Shown here: piece after piece, positions 2,686-10,835 of the stretch
Position numbering within the stretch: position 1 is the stretch's first letter
How the letters are laid out: each line of letters opens with the position of its first letter
Assembly: GCF_023277115.1 (NCBI RefSeq)
Contig: NZ_JALQCS010000001.1
Location: 800,001 to 864,000, forward strand
Direction: 5' to 3'
Origin: Acidithiobacillus acidisediminis
GTDB lineage: Bacteria; Pseudomonadota; Gammaproteobacteria; Acidithiobacillales; Acidithiobacillaceae
Length of the DNA stretch: 64,000 bases
The notes under the pieces: model-generated
Told to the model about the DNA's origin: nothing
The model's database searches: none
The model's input: the letters and a program-made list of their open reading frames with translations, nothing else
Program-made: the position numbers and the translations under genes

Positions 2686-3129
2686 CAATGCCCCCTTTGA
2701 GGGAAGGCGTGTCTGTTACCTTTTCGGCAATTTTCAAAAAGTGGTTGAGCTCTTTGGAGATCCAGAGATGGCATTCAGCCTAGGTCATGGCTGTTCAGGC
2801 TGCGACAGCCAGTGTCTGCCCTGCCGGTATCGGCCACATTCGGCCGTTCAAGATTCTTCCATATCAAGCTGTTGGACGGCAGGACTGCAGCGGGAAACAG
2901 TCGTTACCCTTAAGGTTGGTTGGCGTCAGCATCGTGTCCTTGTTTTCATACATACATATAGAGACGGAGGAATGATAAAGCGATGAAGAATCATCTGGTT
3001 AGTATCTGTTATCGCAGGTCTCTATATTAAAGACTGTCCGGACCCATCGGTCTCTATATTTACTGTTATGCGTCTCAAATATAAACACCGCGTCAGGTCG
3101 GCCACCTGAGAAAACATCGGAGAAAACGA
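2686..3129. other. Intergenic left flank of the accessory islet, with GTCTCTATA repeats
   Basis: No convincing gene is seen in these 444 bases. The 9-mer GTCTCTATA occurs twice in direct orientation (3018-3026 and 3050-3058, 32 bp apart, extended to the 12-mer GGTCTCTATATT) and once inverted at 2957-2965. These sit just upstream of the DUF2158 gene and could be an operator or the remains of an insertion boundary. A 15-codon frame at 2983-3030 is too short and too poorly supported by its ribosome site to call. Confidence 0.5.
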
Positions 3130-3324
3130 ATGGAGAAATTCAAATCGGGCGATATAGTCAAACTCAAGTCTGGCGGCCCGAATATGACCGTCAGCAACTA
3201 CGTGGGAATAGCAGCGGGGCGAGAATCTAAAACGGTCCAATGCAAGTGGTTTGCGGGGGCAAAATCGGAATCATCAAACTTTTACGAAGACATGCTGGTT
3301 CCAGTTGAGGAAGAAAAGAAGTGA
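3130..3324 (+). CDS. DUF2158 (YodC-like) small protein
   Basis: 64 residues. It follows the DUF2158 pattern: GDIVKLKSGGPNMTV near the N-terminus, then V-Q-C-K-W-F, then F and L near the C-terminus. The family is small and widespread, often on mobile DNA and integron cassettes. Its function is unknown. The stop overlaps the next ATG by 4 bases, so the two genes form a coupled pair. It is the first gene of the AT-rich islet. Confidence 0.75.
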   Translation: MEKFKSGDIVKLKSGGPNMTVSNYVGIAAGRESKTVQCKWFAGAKSESSNFYEDMLVPVEEEKK

Positions 3325-3590
3325 GTTTCTCCGCTTTGGAAGTGGCCATATGGATGAAGGAAACCGTAGAAAAGGACGGTTTCCTTTATCAAGATGTCGC
3401 TGCCAGCGAGATTGCATCTCGATTTGGAGATTCATTCACGTATATCAACGACAACGGGAACCTGGCAATCGACCAAGCCGTGCTAAAAGAATTCAAAAAG
3501 CAAACGGGAGACAGCGCAATTTGGGAGCGGGGCCAACGTCTTTGGCGTAAGCGCGAAAGCTACGACTTACCCGGTCGTCAACAGCCTTAG
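3321..3590 (+). CDS. Small uncharacterised islet protein (resembles DUF6953)
   Basis: 89 residues, overlapping the DUF2158 gene by 4 bases. The sequence has an ALEVAIWM start, a DGFLYQ segment, a YINDNGNLAID segment and a C-terminal tryptophan-rich part (AIWERGQRLWRKRE). From memory this resembles the small cassette-borne family DUF6953, but that assignment is uncertain. No membrane segment or enzyme motif is visible. It is likely co-expressed with the DUF2158 gene. A role in the TIR/caspase system is not indicated by the sequence. Confidence 0.55.
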   Translation: MSFSALEVAIWMKETVEKDGFLYQDVAASEIASRFGDSFTYINDNGNLAIDQAVLKEFKKQTGDSAIWERGQRLWRKRESYDLPGRQQP

Positions 3591-3643
3591 GGAAATTGTG
3601 GGCGATATGCATAACTCAAAGTTAGATCAAAAAGGAGATGGCT

Positions 3644-4060
3644 GTGCCTCAATTGAAAACATATAAACTGTTCATTAGTCATTCATGGGCATACGGTGAT
3701 GCGTATGACAAACTGGTCAAATTTTTCAATGAGTATCCAAACTTCCATTGGGTTGACTACTCTGTTCCGAAGAACGACCCAATTCATAATGCTCCGAACG
3801 ATAAAGCGCTTTACCAGGCGATAAAAAATCAAATGCAAGTTGTAAATTGTGTCGTAATGCTCGCAGGCGTGTACAGTACCCATTCGAAATGGATCAATAA
3901 AGAGATTGAGATAGCAAAGAATGTATTTTCAAAGCCACTGATCGCCGTCGAGCCGTGGGCATCTGAAAAAACCTCAAAAATCGTCAAAGATAATGCTGAC
4001 GCAATAGTAAAATGGCAAAGCTCTTCAATTGTCGCCGCTATTCGTAATTACTCTATTTAG
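3644..4060 (+). CDS. TIR-like (DUF1863/ThsB-type) signalling protein
   Basis: About 138 residues forming a single TIR-like domain of the DUF1863 type found in Thoeris ThsB proteins. It has KLFISHSWAYGDAY at the first strand, and VVMLAGVYSTHSKWINKEIEIA where TIR NADases keep the S-x-W-x-x-x-E motif. The likely catalytic glutamate is E89 and the tryptophan W85, numbered from the ATG at 3638. ThsB proteins sense phage and convert NAD+ into a cyclic ADP-ribose signal. That activity is inferred here. GGAG abuts the ATG at 3638 with no spacer, whereas the GTG at 3644 lies 6 bases after AAGGAG, so 3644 is preferred. The caspase-like gene starts 7 bases after the stop. Base composition is clearly AT-richer than the flanks, consistent with acquisition. 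Confidence 0.82.
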   Translation: MPQLKTYKLFISHSWAYGDAYDKLVKFFNEYPNFHWVDYSVPKNDPIHNAPNDKALYQAIKNQMQVVNCVVMLAGVYSTHSKWINKEIEIAKNVFSKPLIAVEPWASEKTSKIVKDNADAIVKWQSSSIVAAIRNYSI

Positions 4061-4067
4061 GTGAGTT

Positions 4068-5021
4068 ATGAGAAAGGCTCTGGTTGTCGGGATTGATCAC
4101 TACGAAAATGTCAGTCAATTGCATGGATGCGTTAACGACGCTTTCGCGGTTAAAAATGTGCTTGAAAGACATGGCGATGGTTCACCGAATTTCGGCGTCA
4201 ATACAATAGTTGCATCTGGCGCAGCATCGAAGATTGAAAGAAGGCAGCTTAAGGATGTGGTAATTGAGCTTTTTAAAGATGATGCAGATATAGCATTATT
4301 CTACTTCTCGGGGCATGGGTATATTGAGTCAACAGGAGGCTACTTAATTACGTCAGAGTGTTCTGATGGCGATGATGGTTTTTCCATGGATGAATTGCTT
4401 ACTATAGCGAACGGATCAAGAGCAAAAAACAAAATTATAATTTTAGATTGCTGTCATTCTGGAGTTGCTGGCAATCCGTCAAGCACAGAAGACAAGTCCT
4501 TTCTGAGTGAAGGAGTAACAATTCTCACCGCTTCTGCCAAAGATCAATATTCAATAGAGTCTGGTGGCTCTGGAGTATTTACCATGCTCTTAGTCGACGC
4601 CTTAAATGGAAGCGCCGCAAATCTTGTGGGAGATATTACCCCGGGAAGCGTTTACGCGCACATTGACCAATCTCTTGGGCCTTGGGAGCAGCGCCCTATA
4701 TTTAAAACTAATGTAAAACGCTTCATATCCTTGAGAGAGGTTCAGCCTCCGATAGCGCTTGATGAGCTCAGGAAAATTAATCAACTCTTCCCAGATCAAA
4801 CTTATAGCTTTCCTTTAAATCCCAGTTTTGAGCCAACGTCAGATAGTTGTGATGATGACAATATGGAAATATTTGCAATCCTCCAAAAGTACAATCGGAT
4901 TAATCTGGTTAAGCCTATTGACGAAGAACATATGTACTATGCCGCTATGAATTCAACTGGCTGTAGGCTCACAGTTCTCGGCGCGCATTATTGGAATTTG
5001 GTGCAAAAGAAATTGATCTGA
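4068..5021 (+). CDS. Caspase-like (peptidase C14) protease, probable Thoeris effector
   Basis: 317 residues. The N-terminal two thirds (about 1-230) is a caspase/metacaspase fold. ALVVGIDHYENV begins the p20-like region, the catalytic His83 lies in FYFSGHG and the catalytic Cys129 in IIILDCCHSG, with LTASAKDQYS after it and FTMLLVDAL in the p10-like part. Residues of about 235-317 match no family I recognise and could sense the signal. TIR plus caspase gene pairs have been described as type IV Thoeris, in which a TIR-made cyclic ADP-ribose activates the protease and the infected cell dies. Function here is inferred from that architecture. GGTGAG precedes the ATG, and the 7-bp gap to the TIR gene indicates one transcript. 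Confidence 0.85.
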   Translation: MRKALVVGIDHYENVSQLHGCVNDAFAVKNVLERHGDGSPNFGVNTIVASGAASKIERRQLKDVVIELFKDDADIALFYFSGHGYIESTGGYLITSECSDGDDGFSMDELLTIANGSRAKNKIIILDCCHSGVAGNPSSTEDKSFLSEGVTILTASAKDQYSIESGGSGVFTMLLVDALNGSAANLVGDITPGSVYAHIDQSLGPWEQRPIFKTNVKRFISLREVQPPIALDELRKINQLFPDQTYSFPLNPSFEPTSDSCDDDNMEIFAILQKYNRINLVKPIDEEHMYYAAMNSTGCRLTVLGAHYWNLVQKKLI

Positions 5022-5027
5022 CAATGT

Positions 5028-5083
5028 CATAAACGTGGACCCCAAAAAGTTACGCTCCGCTCCGCGTTTTGGGTCCATTTATG
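5028..5083. repeat. Imperfect inverted repeat downstream of the caspase-like gene
   Basis: Seven bases after the stop codon lie CATAAA, TGGACCC and AAAA, mirrored after a 19-base loop by TTTT, GGGTCCA and TTTATG, with one- and two-base bulges. It could fold into a stable hairpin and end the islet transcript, although no long T run follows. A remnant of an insertion-sequence end is an alternative. The remaining bases to 5382 hold no gene that I can support. Confidence 0.55.
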
Positions 5084-5382
5084 GCTGGCTTTGAACGGCG
5101 GCTGTTGGGTCTGGAACCGACAGCGTGTCACGTAAAAGCAAATGGCAGCTTGGGGTCGGTAGCGGCCACTCAGTCTGCTAGGGCGAAGCCAAGCGTCGGA
5201 GTCGATCATCCGTTCTGTGAAAAATGCGCTTGATCCTATAGCTGGTCCAACAATAGTTAACAACATTCCGGGTCTTCATAATGGCTGATGACGTTAAAGT
5301 CCGTTGAGCCAACCATTGTTCGCAGTTACGGAACGATCGGGTAATGAAGGCGTCTGAGCATGACCAAATCGCGGCAGTCTGG
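5084..5382. other. Non-coding right flank of the accessory islet
   Basis: About 300 bases between the hairpin and the stop of the flavoprotein gene. No open frame here has codon usage or similarity that I can defend, and no tRNA or clear insertion end is visible. It probably represents decayed flanking DNA. Confidence 0.4.
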
Positions 5383-6507
5383 TTACGAGAGAGCAGGCTG
5401 AACCGCCAATAACGCGGCCTCTACGGCGCCTGCGAGGTATCCTGGGGTACTGGGCGAACACTCGCTGGCGAGGGCCAAGAGGCGGTGTTGCCAGAGTCCG
5501 GTATCTACCATCATAGGGGCCGGATTGGGGTGTTCTCCGGATGCGCTCCTATCTGTGCTGGTGGCCGTGAAGGTTTCCTGAGCCCAGTCCTGATAGAGCT
5601 CCTGGAGAGGGCTTTGGGCCTTCGCTCCAAAAAGGCGTGCGAGTTGAGCGCGACAAAGGGCGCGGAGTTCTGACTCTGACAGGGCGGCGCGTGTCGCGGC
5701 CGGTAGGGCAAAAAAGCCAAAGAGCGCGGCAGGTCCATCGGGGATGCTGGCGTCATGGATCTCATTGAGGGGGCCGACGGCGCTGCGTGCCTCCCCTGAG
5801 AGGCCCTGGGCACGCCAGAAGGGTTCGGCGTATACCGCGAAATATTTGGCATGGGGTGCCATCCAGGTCTCGGTCTGATGCCAGGTAGCCTGCAAAGCGG
5901 GAGGCAAGTCGGGTTGAAACTGTAGGGTGTCTGCGATCAGTCGCGGGGGTATGGCGAGCAGGACCTGGTCCACCTCGGCGATGACGACGCTTGCGCCTCT
6001 GGCGTCCAGCGCTTCCAAGCGAATCTTGGCATGACGACTATCCAGGGTCAGGCGCGAGATGGGGGTGCGCAGTTGCAGGCGATCGGTGCCAATACGCGCC
6101 TGCAGGGCTTCGGTCAGAGCCGCCATGCCCCCCAGCAGGCGCATGGACTCGGGCACCTGGGGCATATTGGGAAAGCGCTGCGCCGGTGCCGTACTGGAGC
6201 GTTCCAATAGGAGGTCTCCGCTGGCGTACTGGGGGTATGCCTGCAGCCCCAATGCCTGCACCAATTGCGCAAGCTGGGGCTGAAATTCGGGCCAAAACCA
6301 TGAAGGTCCCAGGTCCAAACGGTTAGCCGGCTGGGCTTGCGGATGTTCCCGTGTGGGAGATAAAACCTCGGGCGAGAGAATGCGCCCGCCGATGCGATCG
6401 CGGGCCTCGAACAGTCGCCAATCCTTGCGACCTTGTTGGTCCAACTGCCAGGCGGCGACGAGGCCGCTAAGGCCCGCGCCAATAATCGCAATCTTTGCAT
6501 CACCCAT
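5383..6507 (-). CDS. FAD-dependent amine oxidase-like protein
   Basis: 374 residues. The N-terminus has the Rossmann FAD motif IAIIGAGLSGLVAAW, an acidic residue ending strand two (LFEARDRIGGRI) and the Arg-Ile-Gly-Gly-Arg signature of the amine oxidase/phytoene desaturase superfamily. The C-terminal PGYLAGAVEAALLA matches the FAD-binding end of monoamine oxidases. The substrate cannot be told. The ATG at 6507 is used because the Rossmann strand follows directly. It overlaps the upstream cupin gene by 8 bases, which implies translational coupling. No signal peptide is visible. Confidence 0.8.
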   Translation of the reverse strand: MGDAKIAIIGAGLSGLVAAWQLDQQGRKDWRLFEARDRIGGRILSPEVLSPTREHPQAQPANRLDLGPSWFWPEFQPQLAQLVQALGLQAYPQYASGDLLLERSSTAPAQRFPNMPQVPESMRLLGGMAALTEALQARIGTDRLQLRTPISRLTLDSRHAKIRLEALDARGASVVIAEVDQVLLAIPPRLIADTLQFQPDLPPALQATWHQTETWMAPHAKYFAVYAEPFWRAQGLSGEARSAVGPLNEIHDASIPDGPAALFGFFALPAATRAALSESELRALCRAQLARLFGAKAQSPLQELYQDWAQETFTATSTDRSASGEHPNPAPMMVDTGLWQHRLLALASECSPSTPGYLAGAVEAALLAVQPALS

Positions 6508-7174
6508 GGACGGGGGCTTCCCCAACGGGTAGGGCACCGACCTTGACATAGCAGCGCGCGCCGTCGCTTCCGGCGCGTAGGCCGGGATAGTGACCGGCAG
6601 GAAGTCGCATCCAGCTTCCCTGGCGGTAGCAGCTCTCGCCTTCCGTCAGCGTGCCGTGCAGCAGCAGCCATTCGGCGCCGGGTATGGGGTCGGGAAACAA
6701 CACCGCACCGGCCTCCAACTCTTGCACGCTGACCTGCTCGCCCGCGCTGGCGAAGAGGGGGCAGACACGGCGATTCGTGCCCGCGCGCCAGTGTTCCGCT
6801 TGGCGGGTATTGATGCGCACGGGCTGGGTCTCGGTTGCGGGCATCTGCCGCAGTTTGACGAAGAGCAAGGCCCCATCCAGACTGCTCGGCTGGTGGGCGG
6901 AGCCCGGGGGATTGCGCAGATACCAGCCAGCCCCGTAGTCCTGCCCGGCCTCTGATAACGTTCCCTCCAAGACTAGGATCTCTTCGCCCAGGGGATGCTG
7001 GTGCGGCGGAAACGTTGATTGGGGCGCATAGCGCACCAGGCTCGTGGCCCGCGCCTGCTCGGCGCCGATGCGATCTAGCATCACGCGCTCTACTCCGGCC
7101 TGGGGCGAGGGCTGCCAGACATGCTGATCGGGGGTCACCGTGACCCGTTGGTGGAAGTCGGCACGGATGCGCAT
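6500..7174 (-). CDS. Double-cupin (ChrR-like) protein
   Basis: 224 residues with two cupin halves. The first carries FPPHQHPLGEEILVLEG, the classic HxH...E metal-binding cupin motif, followed by G-x-W and H in PPGSAHQP. The second half (FPDPIPGAEWLLLHG) has lost the histidines. It resembles the ChrR/anti-ECF cupin domain, but no zinc-binding anti-sigma domain and no sigma factor gene lie alongside, so an enzymatic or sensing role is open. The ATG at 7174 has AGGAG upstream. The gene leads a two-gene operon with the flavoprotein. Confidence 0.75.
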   Translation of the reverse strand: MRIRADFHQRVTVTPDQHVWQPSPQAGVERVMLDRIGAEQARATSLVRYAPQSTFPPHQHPLGEEILVLEGTLSEAGQDYGAGWYLRNPPGSAHQPSSLDGALLFVKLRQMPATETQPVRINTRQAEHWRAGTNRRVCPLFASAGEQVSVQELEAGAVLFPDPIPGAEWLLLHGTLTEGESCYRQGSWMRLPAGHYPGLRAGSDGARCYVKVGALPVGEAPVHG

Positions 7175-7317
7175 CGCGGGCTCCTGCAGGATCTTGAGAG
7201 ACTGCAGGGTACAAAAGGCCAGCGTGGGAGCGCAATGCTCGACACCCGGCGTTGGGCCGGTAGGATCGTTGCTCGACGGAAGGGCGGATGAAAAGCCGCC
7301 AGGGAGAAGGACAGATC

Positions 7318-7668
7318 GTGCCGCAATTTCAACGGTATTTAGGAATTGACTACTCTGGTGCCAGTACCCCCGAGGCGGCGTTGCCGGGCCTGAGGGTCTA
7401 TGAGGCGGTGGGTAACGCGCCGGCCTGGGAGCGCCTACCCGTGGGGGCAGGCCGGTACTGGTCCCGGCGCGGCCTTGCGGTATTTTTGGAACAGTATTTA
7501 CGCGCGGAGATCCCCAGCGTGGTGGGGATAGATCATGCCTTTTCTTTTCCCCGACGCTACTTTGTGGCGCAGGGGCTGACAGGGGACTGGGCGGAGTTTT
7601 TGCAAGACTTCCACGGCGTATGGCCCAGCGATCTGCCGGGGGTCCGGGTAGAGACCCTGCGGCGTGGT
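7318..7668 (+). pseudogene. DUF429-like (RNase H-fold) gene, 5' fragment cut by IS66
   Basis: 117 codons up to the insertion point. The start YLGIDYSGAS and the later GIDHAFSFPRRYF resemble the acidic first-strand and active-site regions of DUF429, predicted RNase H-like nucleases of unknown role. The GTG at 7318 has GAGAAGGA upstream and is preferred over the ATG at 7288. The frame continues in register at 10185 once the IS66 element and one copy of the 8-bp duplication are removed, restoring a protein of 256 residues. The gene is therefore freshly interrupted rather than decayed. Family assignment is moderate. Confidence 0.75.
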
Positions 7669-7752
7669 GTAAGCGATCTCTGACCGGCGTTCTTCCCTTC
7701 TGAGCAGGCATTGCCCAGCATGGCGCCATCGTTCTTGTAAAGGATTGGCGTC

Positions 7753-8082
7753 ATGGAAAACACCCCAGAAGATAGCGGCAAGGTTCAGGCCCGGACGGAG
7801 GTCTGGCAGCAACGGATGCAGGAATACGAGGCTTGTGGCCTTTCTGCCCGACAGTTCTGCGCAGAACACGGACTGTCCCTGCCGCAGTTTTATTATTGGC
7901 GGCGTCGCCTGCGCCTGGAGAGCGGTGGCGTGGTAGCTCCCGGGGATGATGGGGAGGCGATGGCTCCTGCCTTCGTGGAATTGGGCCTGGGTGCTGTGCC
8001 ACCATCTGCAGCGCGGGCGCTGCCCCTGGAGATTCGCCTCGACCTGGGGGGTGGCTGCGTCCTCTCGATTCGGCGAGGCTGA
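7753..8082 (+). CDS. tnpA: IS66 accessory protein TnpA
   Basis: 109 residues. The region WQQRMQEYEACGLSARQFCAEHG followed by LPQFYYWRRRLR is the helix-turn-helix-like signature of the first IS66 gene, thought to help transposition by binding DNA. The stop lies 3 bases before the tnpB start. The copy at 34212-34541 encodes the same protein. Confidence 0.92.
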   Translation: MENTPEDSGKVQARTEVWQQRMQEYEACGLSARQFCAEHGLSLPQFYYWRRRLRLESGGVVAPGDDGEAMAPAFVELGLGAVPPSAARALPLEIRLDLGGGCVLSIRRG

Positions 8083-8085
8083 GGG

Positions 8086-8439
8086 ATGTTCTTTCCGGAA
8101 GGACGCATCCGGGTCTTTCTTTGCCGGGTGCCGGTGGACATGCGTAAGTCCTTCGACGGGCTCTCGGCCTTGGTGCATCCGACCTTCGCCCAGGATCCCC
8201 TGTCCGGGCATTGCTTCGTCTTCGTGAATCGCAGGGCGACCCAGATGAAGGTGCTGTATTGGGATCGAACGGGATACTGTCTCTGGGCCAAGCGCCTGGA
8301 GCGGGGTGGCTTTTGGTCGTGGCGGCATCCCCCCAAAGCGGAGATCGACTGGACCGGTCTCAAACTCCTGTTGGAGGGCATCGATGGCGTCCAAAAAAGG
8401 CGCCGTTATCGGCACCAAAACGGAGAAAAATTCTCCTGA
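8086..8439 (+). CDS. tnpB: IS66 accessory protein TnpB
   Basis: 117 residues, the usual size of the IS66 Orf2 protein. It contains VDMRKSFDGLSALV, FVFVNRRATQMKVLYWD and GYCLWAKRLERG, the diagnostic blocks of this family. It is needed for IS66 transposition but its biochemical role is unclear. It lies between tnpA and the transposase gene, with short gaps. Confidence 0.95.
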   Translation: MFFPEGRIRVFLCRVPVDMRKSFDGLSALVHPTFAQDPLSGHCFVFVNRRATQMKVLYWDRTGYCLWAKRLERGGFWSWRHPPKAEIDWTGLKLLLEGIDGVQKRRRYRHQNGEKFS

Positions 8440-8489
8440 AACCCGCTGAAATGCTTGCGATATTAAGCAGTTAGTGTTATGATTCTGCT

Positions 8490-10085
8490 ATGGATTTGGC
8501 AGAATCTCCCACCCCCAGAAACTACCCCGAAGCCCTCGCTGCCTGGCAGCTGCAGGTCGAGATCAATGCCACCATCCACAAGAAATTTGAAGCCCAAATC
8601 CAAGGGCTCCAAAGCCAGCTCGATTGGTTCCGCCAGCAGTTCTTCGGCCAGAAGAGCGAACGGCGCGTCCCTCCGCCTCCGGTCGAGCAGCTGAGTCTCG
8701 GTCAGGAGTTTTCTCCGGCGGAAGTCGCACCTGCGCCTCTTCGTATCGTCGCCGCCCATACTCGCGCCGCGCCCAAACGGCCGGAAGATCGGGCCGAAAG
8801 CCTGCCCTTCTTCGATGAGAGCCGGGTACCTACCGAAACCATCACCCTCCCGGCTCCCGAGATCGCAGGCCTCGATCCCGACGCCTGCGAGATCATCGAT
8901 ACCAAGGTCAGCTACCGCCTGGCCCAGCGGCCAGGCAGCTATGTCGTCCTCAAATACGAGCGGCCGGTGGTCAAGCTCCGGGAATCGGAGACCCTGCACA
9001 CCGCCCCGGCTCCCATGGGGGTTCTGGACGGCAGCCGGGCCGATGTCAGCCTGCTGGCGGGAATCCTGACGGATAAGTTCCTGTACCACTTGCCGCTCTA
9101 TCGGCAGCATCAGCGGATGGTGGCCCAAGGCCTGCGGGTCAGTCGCTCTTGGCTCACCGATCTCGTGCAACGGTCCATTCTGCTCCTGTCCCCCATCTAT
9201 ACGGCCCAGTTTGAGAGCATTCGCCAGTCTCGCGTGCTGACTATGGACGAGACCCCCATCAAGGCGGGACGCCGGGAAAAGGGCAAGATGCACCAAGGGT
9301 ACTTCTGGCCGGTCTTTGGCGATGCCCAGGAGATCTGCTTTCCCTATGCCGAAAGCCGGGGCACCATCCACATCCGGGAGCTCTTGGGCCCCTTGGCGCC
9401 GGGTACGGTGCTCCTGAGCGATGGCTATGCCGCTTATGCCCGCTTCCAGAAAGAAAACGCGGGGCTGATCCATGCCCAGTGCTGGGCCCACAGCCGACGG
9501 GAGTTCGTGCGTGCCGAGGCCCACGCCCCGGAAAGGGTGGCCGAGGCCCTGGAGCAGATCCGGGCGTTCTATCGCGTCGAAGATGAGATTCGCAGCCAAG
9601 GATTGAGCGGTGCGGACAAGCGGCACTATCGCTATACCCATAGCCGCCCCCGGGTCGCCCAGTTCTTCACTTGGGTCGAACAGCAGCTGACGGATACGGC
9701 CTTGCTACCCAGCAATCCCTTCACCAAGGCCCTCGCCTACGTCCACAGTCGCAAGGGGCCGCTGCAGGTCTTTCTGGAAGAACCTGACGTGCCCATCGAC
9801 ACCAACCACATCGAGTGCCAGATCCGACCCATTCCCTTGGGGAGAAAAAACTGGCTCTTCTGCTGGACTGAACTTGGTGCAGAGCATCTCGGTATCATCC
9901 AGAGTCTGCTCAGTACCTGCCGCCTGCAGGGGATCGATCCCTACGATTATCTCGTAGACGTCCTGCAGCGGGTCGGTCAGCATCCGGCCAAGGACGTGGC
10001 CCAACTCACCCCTCGTCTGTGGAAAGAGCACTTTGCCCAGGCACCCCTGCGCTCCGATCTGCACCGCTTCCAGCAACACCGCTGA
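8490..10085 (+). CDS. tnpC: IS66 transposase TnpC
   Basis: 531 residues, full length for the IS66 DDE transposase. An N-terminal coiled-coil-like region is followed by a helix-turn-helix/zinc-finger-type segment and the catalytic core. Probable catalytic acids lie in LTMDETPIKAG (D), LLSDGYAAY (D) and TNHIECQIRP (E), and GRKNWLF is the conserved block after the glutamate. No frameshift or stop interrupts it, so the element should be autonomous. The ATG at 8490 opens the conserved N-terminal region. Confidence 0.95.
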   Translation: MDLAESPTPRNYPEALAAWQLQVEINATIHKKFEAQIQGLQSQLDWFRQQFFGQKSERRVPPPPVEQLSLGQEFSPAEVAPAPLRIVAAHTRAAPKRPEDRAESLPFFDESRVPTETITLPAPEIAGLDPDACEIIDTKVSYRLAQRPGSYVVLKYERPVVKLRESETLHTAPAPMGVLDGSRADVSLLAGILTDKFLYHLPLYRQHQRMVAQGLRVSRSWLTDLVQRSILLLSPIYTAQFESIRQSRVLTMDETPIKAGRREKGKMHQGYFWPVFGDAQEICFPYAESRGTIHIRELLGPLAPGTVLLSDGYAAYARFQKENAGLIHAQCWAHSRREFVRAEAHAPERVAEALEQIRAFYRVEDEIRSQGLSGADKRHYRYTHSRPRVAQFFTWVEQQLTDTALLPSNPFTKALAYVHSRKGPLQVFLEEPDVPIDTNHIECQIRPIPLGRKNWLFCWTELGAEHLGIIQSLLSTCRLQGIDPYDYLVDVLQRVGQHPAKDVAQLTPRLWKEHFAQAPLRSDLHRFQQHR

Positions 10086-10184
10086 TTCCACCGCCCACCT
10101 CAATCCCGACCAGGCAATAAGCCATCCTGCCTCATGCCAATGGAGGGGGGAAGAACGCCGCTGAGAGACCGGTTACGGCGTGGT

Positions 10185-10604
10185 GCCGCTGGACAATTGC
10201 GCGTCGGTAACGCCCGCTGGCGCCGTCACTGCGAGCTGCGTGCTCGCGCGAAGTCGGTTTTTCATTTTGATGTGCCGGGTTCCGTGGCCAAGTCCACCCA
10301 TGCCGGCCTGCCTTGGCTGGCGCAGTTGCGCACGGTGCTGGGTGCGACTGTGCATTGGTGGCCCTTTGATGGTTGGACGCCACCGCCGGCAACCCATGTG
10401 GTAGCAGAATGCTACCCTTCCCTGTGGAGTGGCCGTTATTCGCGCGAGGGACGCAGCCCGGATCAGCAGGATGCGTATGCCGTGGCGGAGTCCCTGCGTT
10501 TATTTGATCAGCAAGGCGATTTGGCGGACTACTTCCACCCCGTCCTCAGCCCAGAGGAAGCGCAAGATGCCCCCTTCGAGGGTTGGATTTTAGGGGTGCG
10601 CTGA
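10185..10604 (+). pseudogene. DUF429-like gene, 3' fragment after IS66
   Basis: 139 codons and a stop that complete the gene begun at 7318. KSVFHFDVPGSVAKSTHAG and HVVAECYPSLW belong to the C-terminal half of the same family. An ATG inside the right end of the IS66 element (10134) opens a frame that runs through the IS end and stays in register with this fragment, so a 156-residue hybrid starting MPMEGGRTPLRDRLR is possible, but no good ribosome site precedes it. Confidence 0.7.
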
Positions 10605-10634
10605 GCCGTAGGTTAGTCCGCTTACGTTGGGGGG

Positions 10635-10835
10635 CTAGAGGTCGTGCGCACCGCTATACTCGTAGCGGGTTGCTCCCGAGGGAGACTCGGCGCTTTCGGG
10701 TAGGAGCTTACGCAGTTCTGCCCCTGCCGCACCGACGATTTTGGCGTTCTTGTCGAGTTCTGCAGCAACTTCGCGCGCTTCGTCCATGCGCATTTCCAAG
10801 ACGGTGCTCTCGGCATCTTCGCTTACGATCTTCAT
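10635..10835 (-). CDS. Small protein of unknown function
   Basis: 66 residues beginning MKIVSEDAESTVLEMRMDEA with a charged helical stretch (DEAREVAAELDKN) and a polar C-terminus. The ATG at 10835 has a strong GAGGAGG ribosome site, which supports it as a real gene. It is the second gene of a pair with the reading frame at 10846-11040, separated by 10 bases. I recognise no family. Two small consecutive genes might suggest a toxin-antitoxin pair, but nothing in the sequence demonstrates that. Confidence 0.6.
   Translation of the reverse strand: MKIVSEDAESTVLEMRMDEAREVAAELDKNAKIVGAAGAELRKLLPESAESPSGATRYEYSGAHDL

Follow-up and report, generated by a model that had tools for sequence, protein, structure and literature searches.

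A TIR-caspase gene pair in Acidithiobacillus acidisediminis, very probably a type IV Thoeris-kind defence operon gained by horizontal transfer

An AT-rich islet in the genome of Acidithiobacillus acidisediminis carries two adjacent genes, one for a TIR protein and one for a caspase-like protease, a combination reminiscent of innate immunity in animals and plants, and the question is whether the two form a defence unit and, if so, of which kind. The islet lies in the window, which is the whole 64,000-nucleotide stretch analysed here (positions 800,001-864,000 of contig NZ_JALQCS010000001.1, assembly GCF_023277115.1), and a first-pass annotation made from the letters had proposed a type IV Thoeris-style unit. 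A role of TIR-caspase pairs in anti-phage signalling has been published (as reported in PMC12847820 and PMC13373217), and the present analysis indicates with high confidence that the pair (Table 1) is a two-gene TIR-caspase operon for defence that was acquired horizontally and is of the type IV Thoeris kind.

Table 1. Features in and around the TIR-caspase gene pair, in coordinates of the window.
Feature	Coordinates	Strand	Size or content	Basis or predicted role
TIR gene (ThsB-like)	3644..4060	+	138 aa from GTG 3644 (140 aa from ATG 3638)	Predicted NADase/cyclase and phage sensor
Caspase-like protease gene	4068..5021	+	317 aa, dyad H83/C129	Predicted ThsA-type effector; PF00656, PADLOC, AlphaFold
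C-terminal domain, winged-helix-like, family-wide	4734..5021	+	Protease residues 223-317	AlphaFold, fold matches
Two small overlapping genes, DUF2158 and DUF6953	3130..3590	+		PF09926 1.2e-16, PF22266 9.7e-26
~8 kb insertion	2686..10700		TIR-caspase pair, amine oxidase gene, IS66 element	
IS66 element	7753-10085		Within the ~8 kb insertion	

The two open reading frames (3638-4060, 140 aa as first read, and 4068-5021) are both intact and lie 7 bp apart on the forward strand, exactly as annotated. The TIR protein belongs to the ThsB type, as it matches Pfam family PF08937 (ThsB_TIR; 6.5e-20, above the family cut-off) and the PADLOC ThsB model (3.4e-10), while a profile built from 30 related TIR proteins hits ThsB proteins of known structure (8fz9, the best TIR match, at 8.4e-10; 6lhy and 9b7d at 5e-4). 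Its true start is probably GTG 3644, because ATG 3638 immediately adjoins the GGAG of the ribosome-binding site and the closest TIR homologues (L001 and L013) begin at the codon equivalent to this third codon of the frame, in which case the catalytic residue first read as E89 becomes E87. In the profile alignment E89 (original numbering, kept below) lines up with E85, the WVRYEI-motif glutamate of ThsB that is needed to produce a cADPR isomer (PMC10022894), and E89 is identical in 77 of the 77 TIRs that adjoin a homologous caspase. W85, the other residue singled out by the first-pass annotation, is kept in the same TIR class only and not across all neighbouring TIRs; both residues are present as claimed, and the glutamate probably has to be renumbered.

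The second gene encodes a protease matching the Pfam caspase family (PF00656, 6.5e-20) and the PADLOC caspase model (2.1e-20), so that the profile searches proposed for both proteins agree with the families first assigned to them. Its dyad residues H83 and C129 are invariant across 59 aligned homologues, and the AlphaFold model (mean pLDDT 93.4, pTM 0.89) has its best PDB fold matches among MALT1 and caspase structures (E values as low as 4.5e-13), which bears out the annotation of a caspase-like enzyme with intact catalytic residues. A sequence search of the PDB gave no relative of the full-length protease, the caspase domain alone matching metacaspases and MALT1, and for this reason the high-confidence model and the invariant residues offer immediate starting points for working out how the protease detects its signal.

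The C-terminal ~80 residues of the protease had been described as matching no recognised family and as a possible distinct sensing domain. Pfam returned no family and nothing consistent for residues 223-317, and the structure prediction that had been recommended for this region gave, for these residues alone, a confident model (pLDDT 95.3) of winged-helix-like shape. Nearly all of its best fold matches in the PDB are winged helices of the MarR type, but these are weak (E 0.02-0.2, TM ~0.5), and the domain is accordingly called winged-helix-like and nothing more. The C-terminal ~80-95 residues are conserved in every full-length homologue, with F241, L250, E255, L272, P283, A292, A293, C299, L301, T302, G305 and Y308 invariant; a separate conserved domain is thus present as supposed, but it is family-wide, and the idea that it is a peculiarity of this copy is ruled out. 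When 399 genomes of the phylum were scanned blind with the profile of this domain, 7 (source genome counted) contained it, always fused to the TIR-linked caspase type, and a TIR gene adjoins the domain-bearing caspase in six of these seven, the contig of the remaining one ending there. More distant caspases that lack the domain were without a TIR neighbour in 5 of 5 cases inspected. Because the domain occurs fused to caspases beside TIR genes, and caspases devoid of it occur without TIR genes, it marks TIR-linked caspases.

The pairing itself is widespread. A homologue search restricted to one genome per species yielded 80 loci (44-83% identity, nearly all full length), with a TIR gene immediately beside the caspase in 76 (64 upstream, 12 downstream). 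The same arrangement is found in 15 of 16 loci on viral contigs and at inspected plasmid loci of Klebsiella, E. coli, Enterococcus, Shewanella, Thiolapillus and others, while the archaeal occurrence is one genome, Methanogenium (L006). These genomic, viral and plasmid loci together establish the TIR-caspase pairing as more than chance and as a real unit across many phyla.

Several homologous loci carry further genes or altered copies. Alphaproteobacterial and actinobacterial loci (L019, L020, L023-L029 and L035-L037) have a third gene (~92-102 aa, 'LAAIEHERWSHWQRYMHGK') just after the caspase; its product looks like a RyR-type ligand-binding domain, and a Pfam search with the L020 copy gave no match. 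An additional TIR gene that differs from the first (about 160 aa) stands beside the pair in L036, L037, L044, L077, L100, L129, L140 and L142. On the E. coli plasmid NZ_CP075724.1 (L136), estX and aadA1 are directly followed by a pair whose caspase is disrupted, in surroundings that look like an integron cassette array amid resistance genes, and some plasmids match caspase residues 1-127 only. In the two Pseudomonas loci L046 and L047, both of which were read out, the caspase is flanked by rsgA-like and motB-like genes, an interval that is likely an insertion hotspot; the TIR partner is missing from L047.

The TIR proteins paired with this caspase family fall into SHSW, FAIED/FISFD and PHRW types, which share 18-21% identity between classes. 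The complete plasmids of Thiolapillus and Shewanella encode caspases 73% identical next to TIRs of different classes that are 21% identical, L013 and L015 likewise share 79% of caspase and 18% of TIR residues, and the caspase tree requires 14 changes of TIR class (minimum 4, shuffled mean 25.4). These mismatches of identity and changes on the tree show that the caspase has been re-paired with different TIRs, the TIR partners of this family having been swapped, and the pair in the window seems to carry traces of exchange itself, its TIR being 85% and its caspase 61% identical to those of L013. The loci thereby form a large comparative set in which TIR partners vary and the effector retains a single kind of C-terminal domain. 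Since the partners have been exchanged, one caspase type may read the signals of several TIR classes, and a shared messenger would be the simplest reading. A broader proposal, plausible at somewhat less than an even chance, is that the caspase family with the winged-helix-like domain, a domain that turned up nowhere else in these scans, serves as a shared receiver for TIR sensors that can replace one another and have been swapped several times; this would imply that the messenger is shared or that the receivers are quickly re-tuned. In the first 49 sequences, residue 145 (in the loop that follows the catalytic cysteine) sorted the caspases almost perfectly by TIR class; it was rejected as a specificity determinant, as the held-out loci fail, with many FAIED-type partners having Leu, Val or Ala. 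Across those 49 sequences and the held-out loci, no caspase residue reliably tracks TIR class.

The genes, folds, catalytic residues, conserved pairing and mobile location are directly supported at this locus, and the published family suggests how they would work together. Upon phage infection, the TIR protein would convert NAD+ into a messenger of the cyclic ADP-ribose type, N7-cADPR being the messenger of type IV Thoeris (PMC12847820, citing Rousset et al. 2025), and this messenger would switch on the caspase-like protease, whose winged-helix-like domain may assist activation by messenger binding or oligomerisation. The active protease would then degrade cell proteins, stopping the production of phage while sacrificing the cell. 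With the same architecture, the TIR protein might make another ADPR-type signal for the caspase to read (a different cADPR isomer or an amino-acid conjugate), in keeping with the great dissimilarity and swapping of the TIR classes and with the use of other signals by Thoeris types other than IV, as reported in PMC12847820. This alternative is considered unlikely, as the effectors that go with different TIR classes remain well conserved, C-terminal domain included, and the lack of a caspase residue tracking these classes is more easily explained by one shared signal.

An acquired type IV Thoeris-kind operon is also consistent with the setting of the pair. The pair has a GC content of 41.6%, the lowest among 1384-bp stretches of the window (mean 60.9%, sd 4.0), so that the AT-rich islet noted by the first-pass annotation is genuine; the AT-rich part extends over 2990-5050 (43% GC). 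Two congeners have the counterpart of the window from 10.70 kb onward within 126-675 bp after speE, and because gene and segment nearly adjoin there, the ~8 kb between them are an insertion in this genome. The low GC content and this insertion both support horizontal acquisition. Among the 57 genomes examined, four, including the source genome, gave any caspase match, and a related TIR-caspase pair occurs in one genome besides the source, where it belongs to a different genus and is cut by a contig end. The DUF2158 and DUF6953 genes, 47 bp upstream of the TIR frame, are ruled out as system components by their absence from all 80 homologous loci and are best regarded as fellow passengers. A hairpin after the caspase gene (about 5031-5085) was dismissed as a significant or repeated element (RNA folding z = -1.2, single genomic copy), and a promoter scan gave fewer matches than in shuffled sequence. 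The nearby IS66 element and other cargo, together with the rarity of caspase matches among the relatives, would also suit a pair that is decayed or has no part in defence and travels on a mobile islet as cargo, for instance as a stress-response or addiction module; this is improbable, as both frames are intact, all invariant residues are present and the pair is conserved in many bacterial phyla, one archaeal genome, plasmids and viral contigs. Similarly improbable is direct contact, in which a phage-triggered TIR protein would bind and activate the caspase with NAD+ chemistry secondary, since the tight genetic pairing that would suit it is countered by the invariance of the catalytic glutamate in all neighbouring TIRs, by swaps between TIRs of ~20% identity, which speak against a co-evolved protein interface, and by the diffusible signal of the mechanism published in PMC12847820.

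The pair can be compared with several known systems. Type I Thoeris (ThsB TIR and ThsA SIR2-SLOG) likewise contains a TIR of the PF08937 type with a catalytic glutamate, but its effector is SIR2-SLOG, whereas the effector here is a caspase; the genome gave no match to SLOG/STALD (PF18185), and the control genomes gave none either. Type II Thoeris (ThsB TIR and TM-macro ThsA) also has a TIR signalling gene adjoining an effector gene, but that effector is the TM-macro ThsA and not a protease, and a search of the genome for macro-domain ThsA (PF20016), run without a positive control, gave no match. The EACC1-associated bacterial caspases (NCBIfam NF047832) share the caspase domain but pair with EACC1 instead of a TIR protein, and the present protease is excluded from this family because it scores 97.3 bits, below the curated cut-off of 140. 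Metacaspases and the MALT1 paracaspase share the caspase fold and dyad but possess Ig or other domains, whereas the protease here has a winged-helix-like C-terminal domain and resides in a bacterial TIR operon.

Type IV Thoeris is a TIR-caspase pair (Rousset et al. 2025 Science 387:510, as cited in PMC12847820 and PMC13373217), and the window contains the corresponding two-gene operon of adjacent, same-strand genes for a TIR protein with the catalytic glutamate and a caspase-fold protease with an intact His/Cys dyad. Gene content and order, catalytic residues, folds and the broad syntenic family all fit the published architecture, in favour of the original type IV assignment; the published system lacks the DUF2158 and DUF6953 neighbours seen here, and there is no visible architectural difference otherwise, the comparison having been made at the level of architecture. 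The pair adds a clean extra copy of the bacterial TIR-to-caspase death pathway, in an unrelated genus, to the examples of an already known system, and what is new lies in the family-level observations rather than in this copy.
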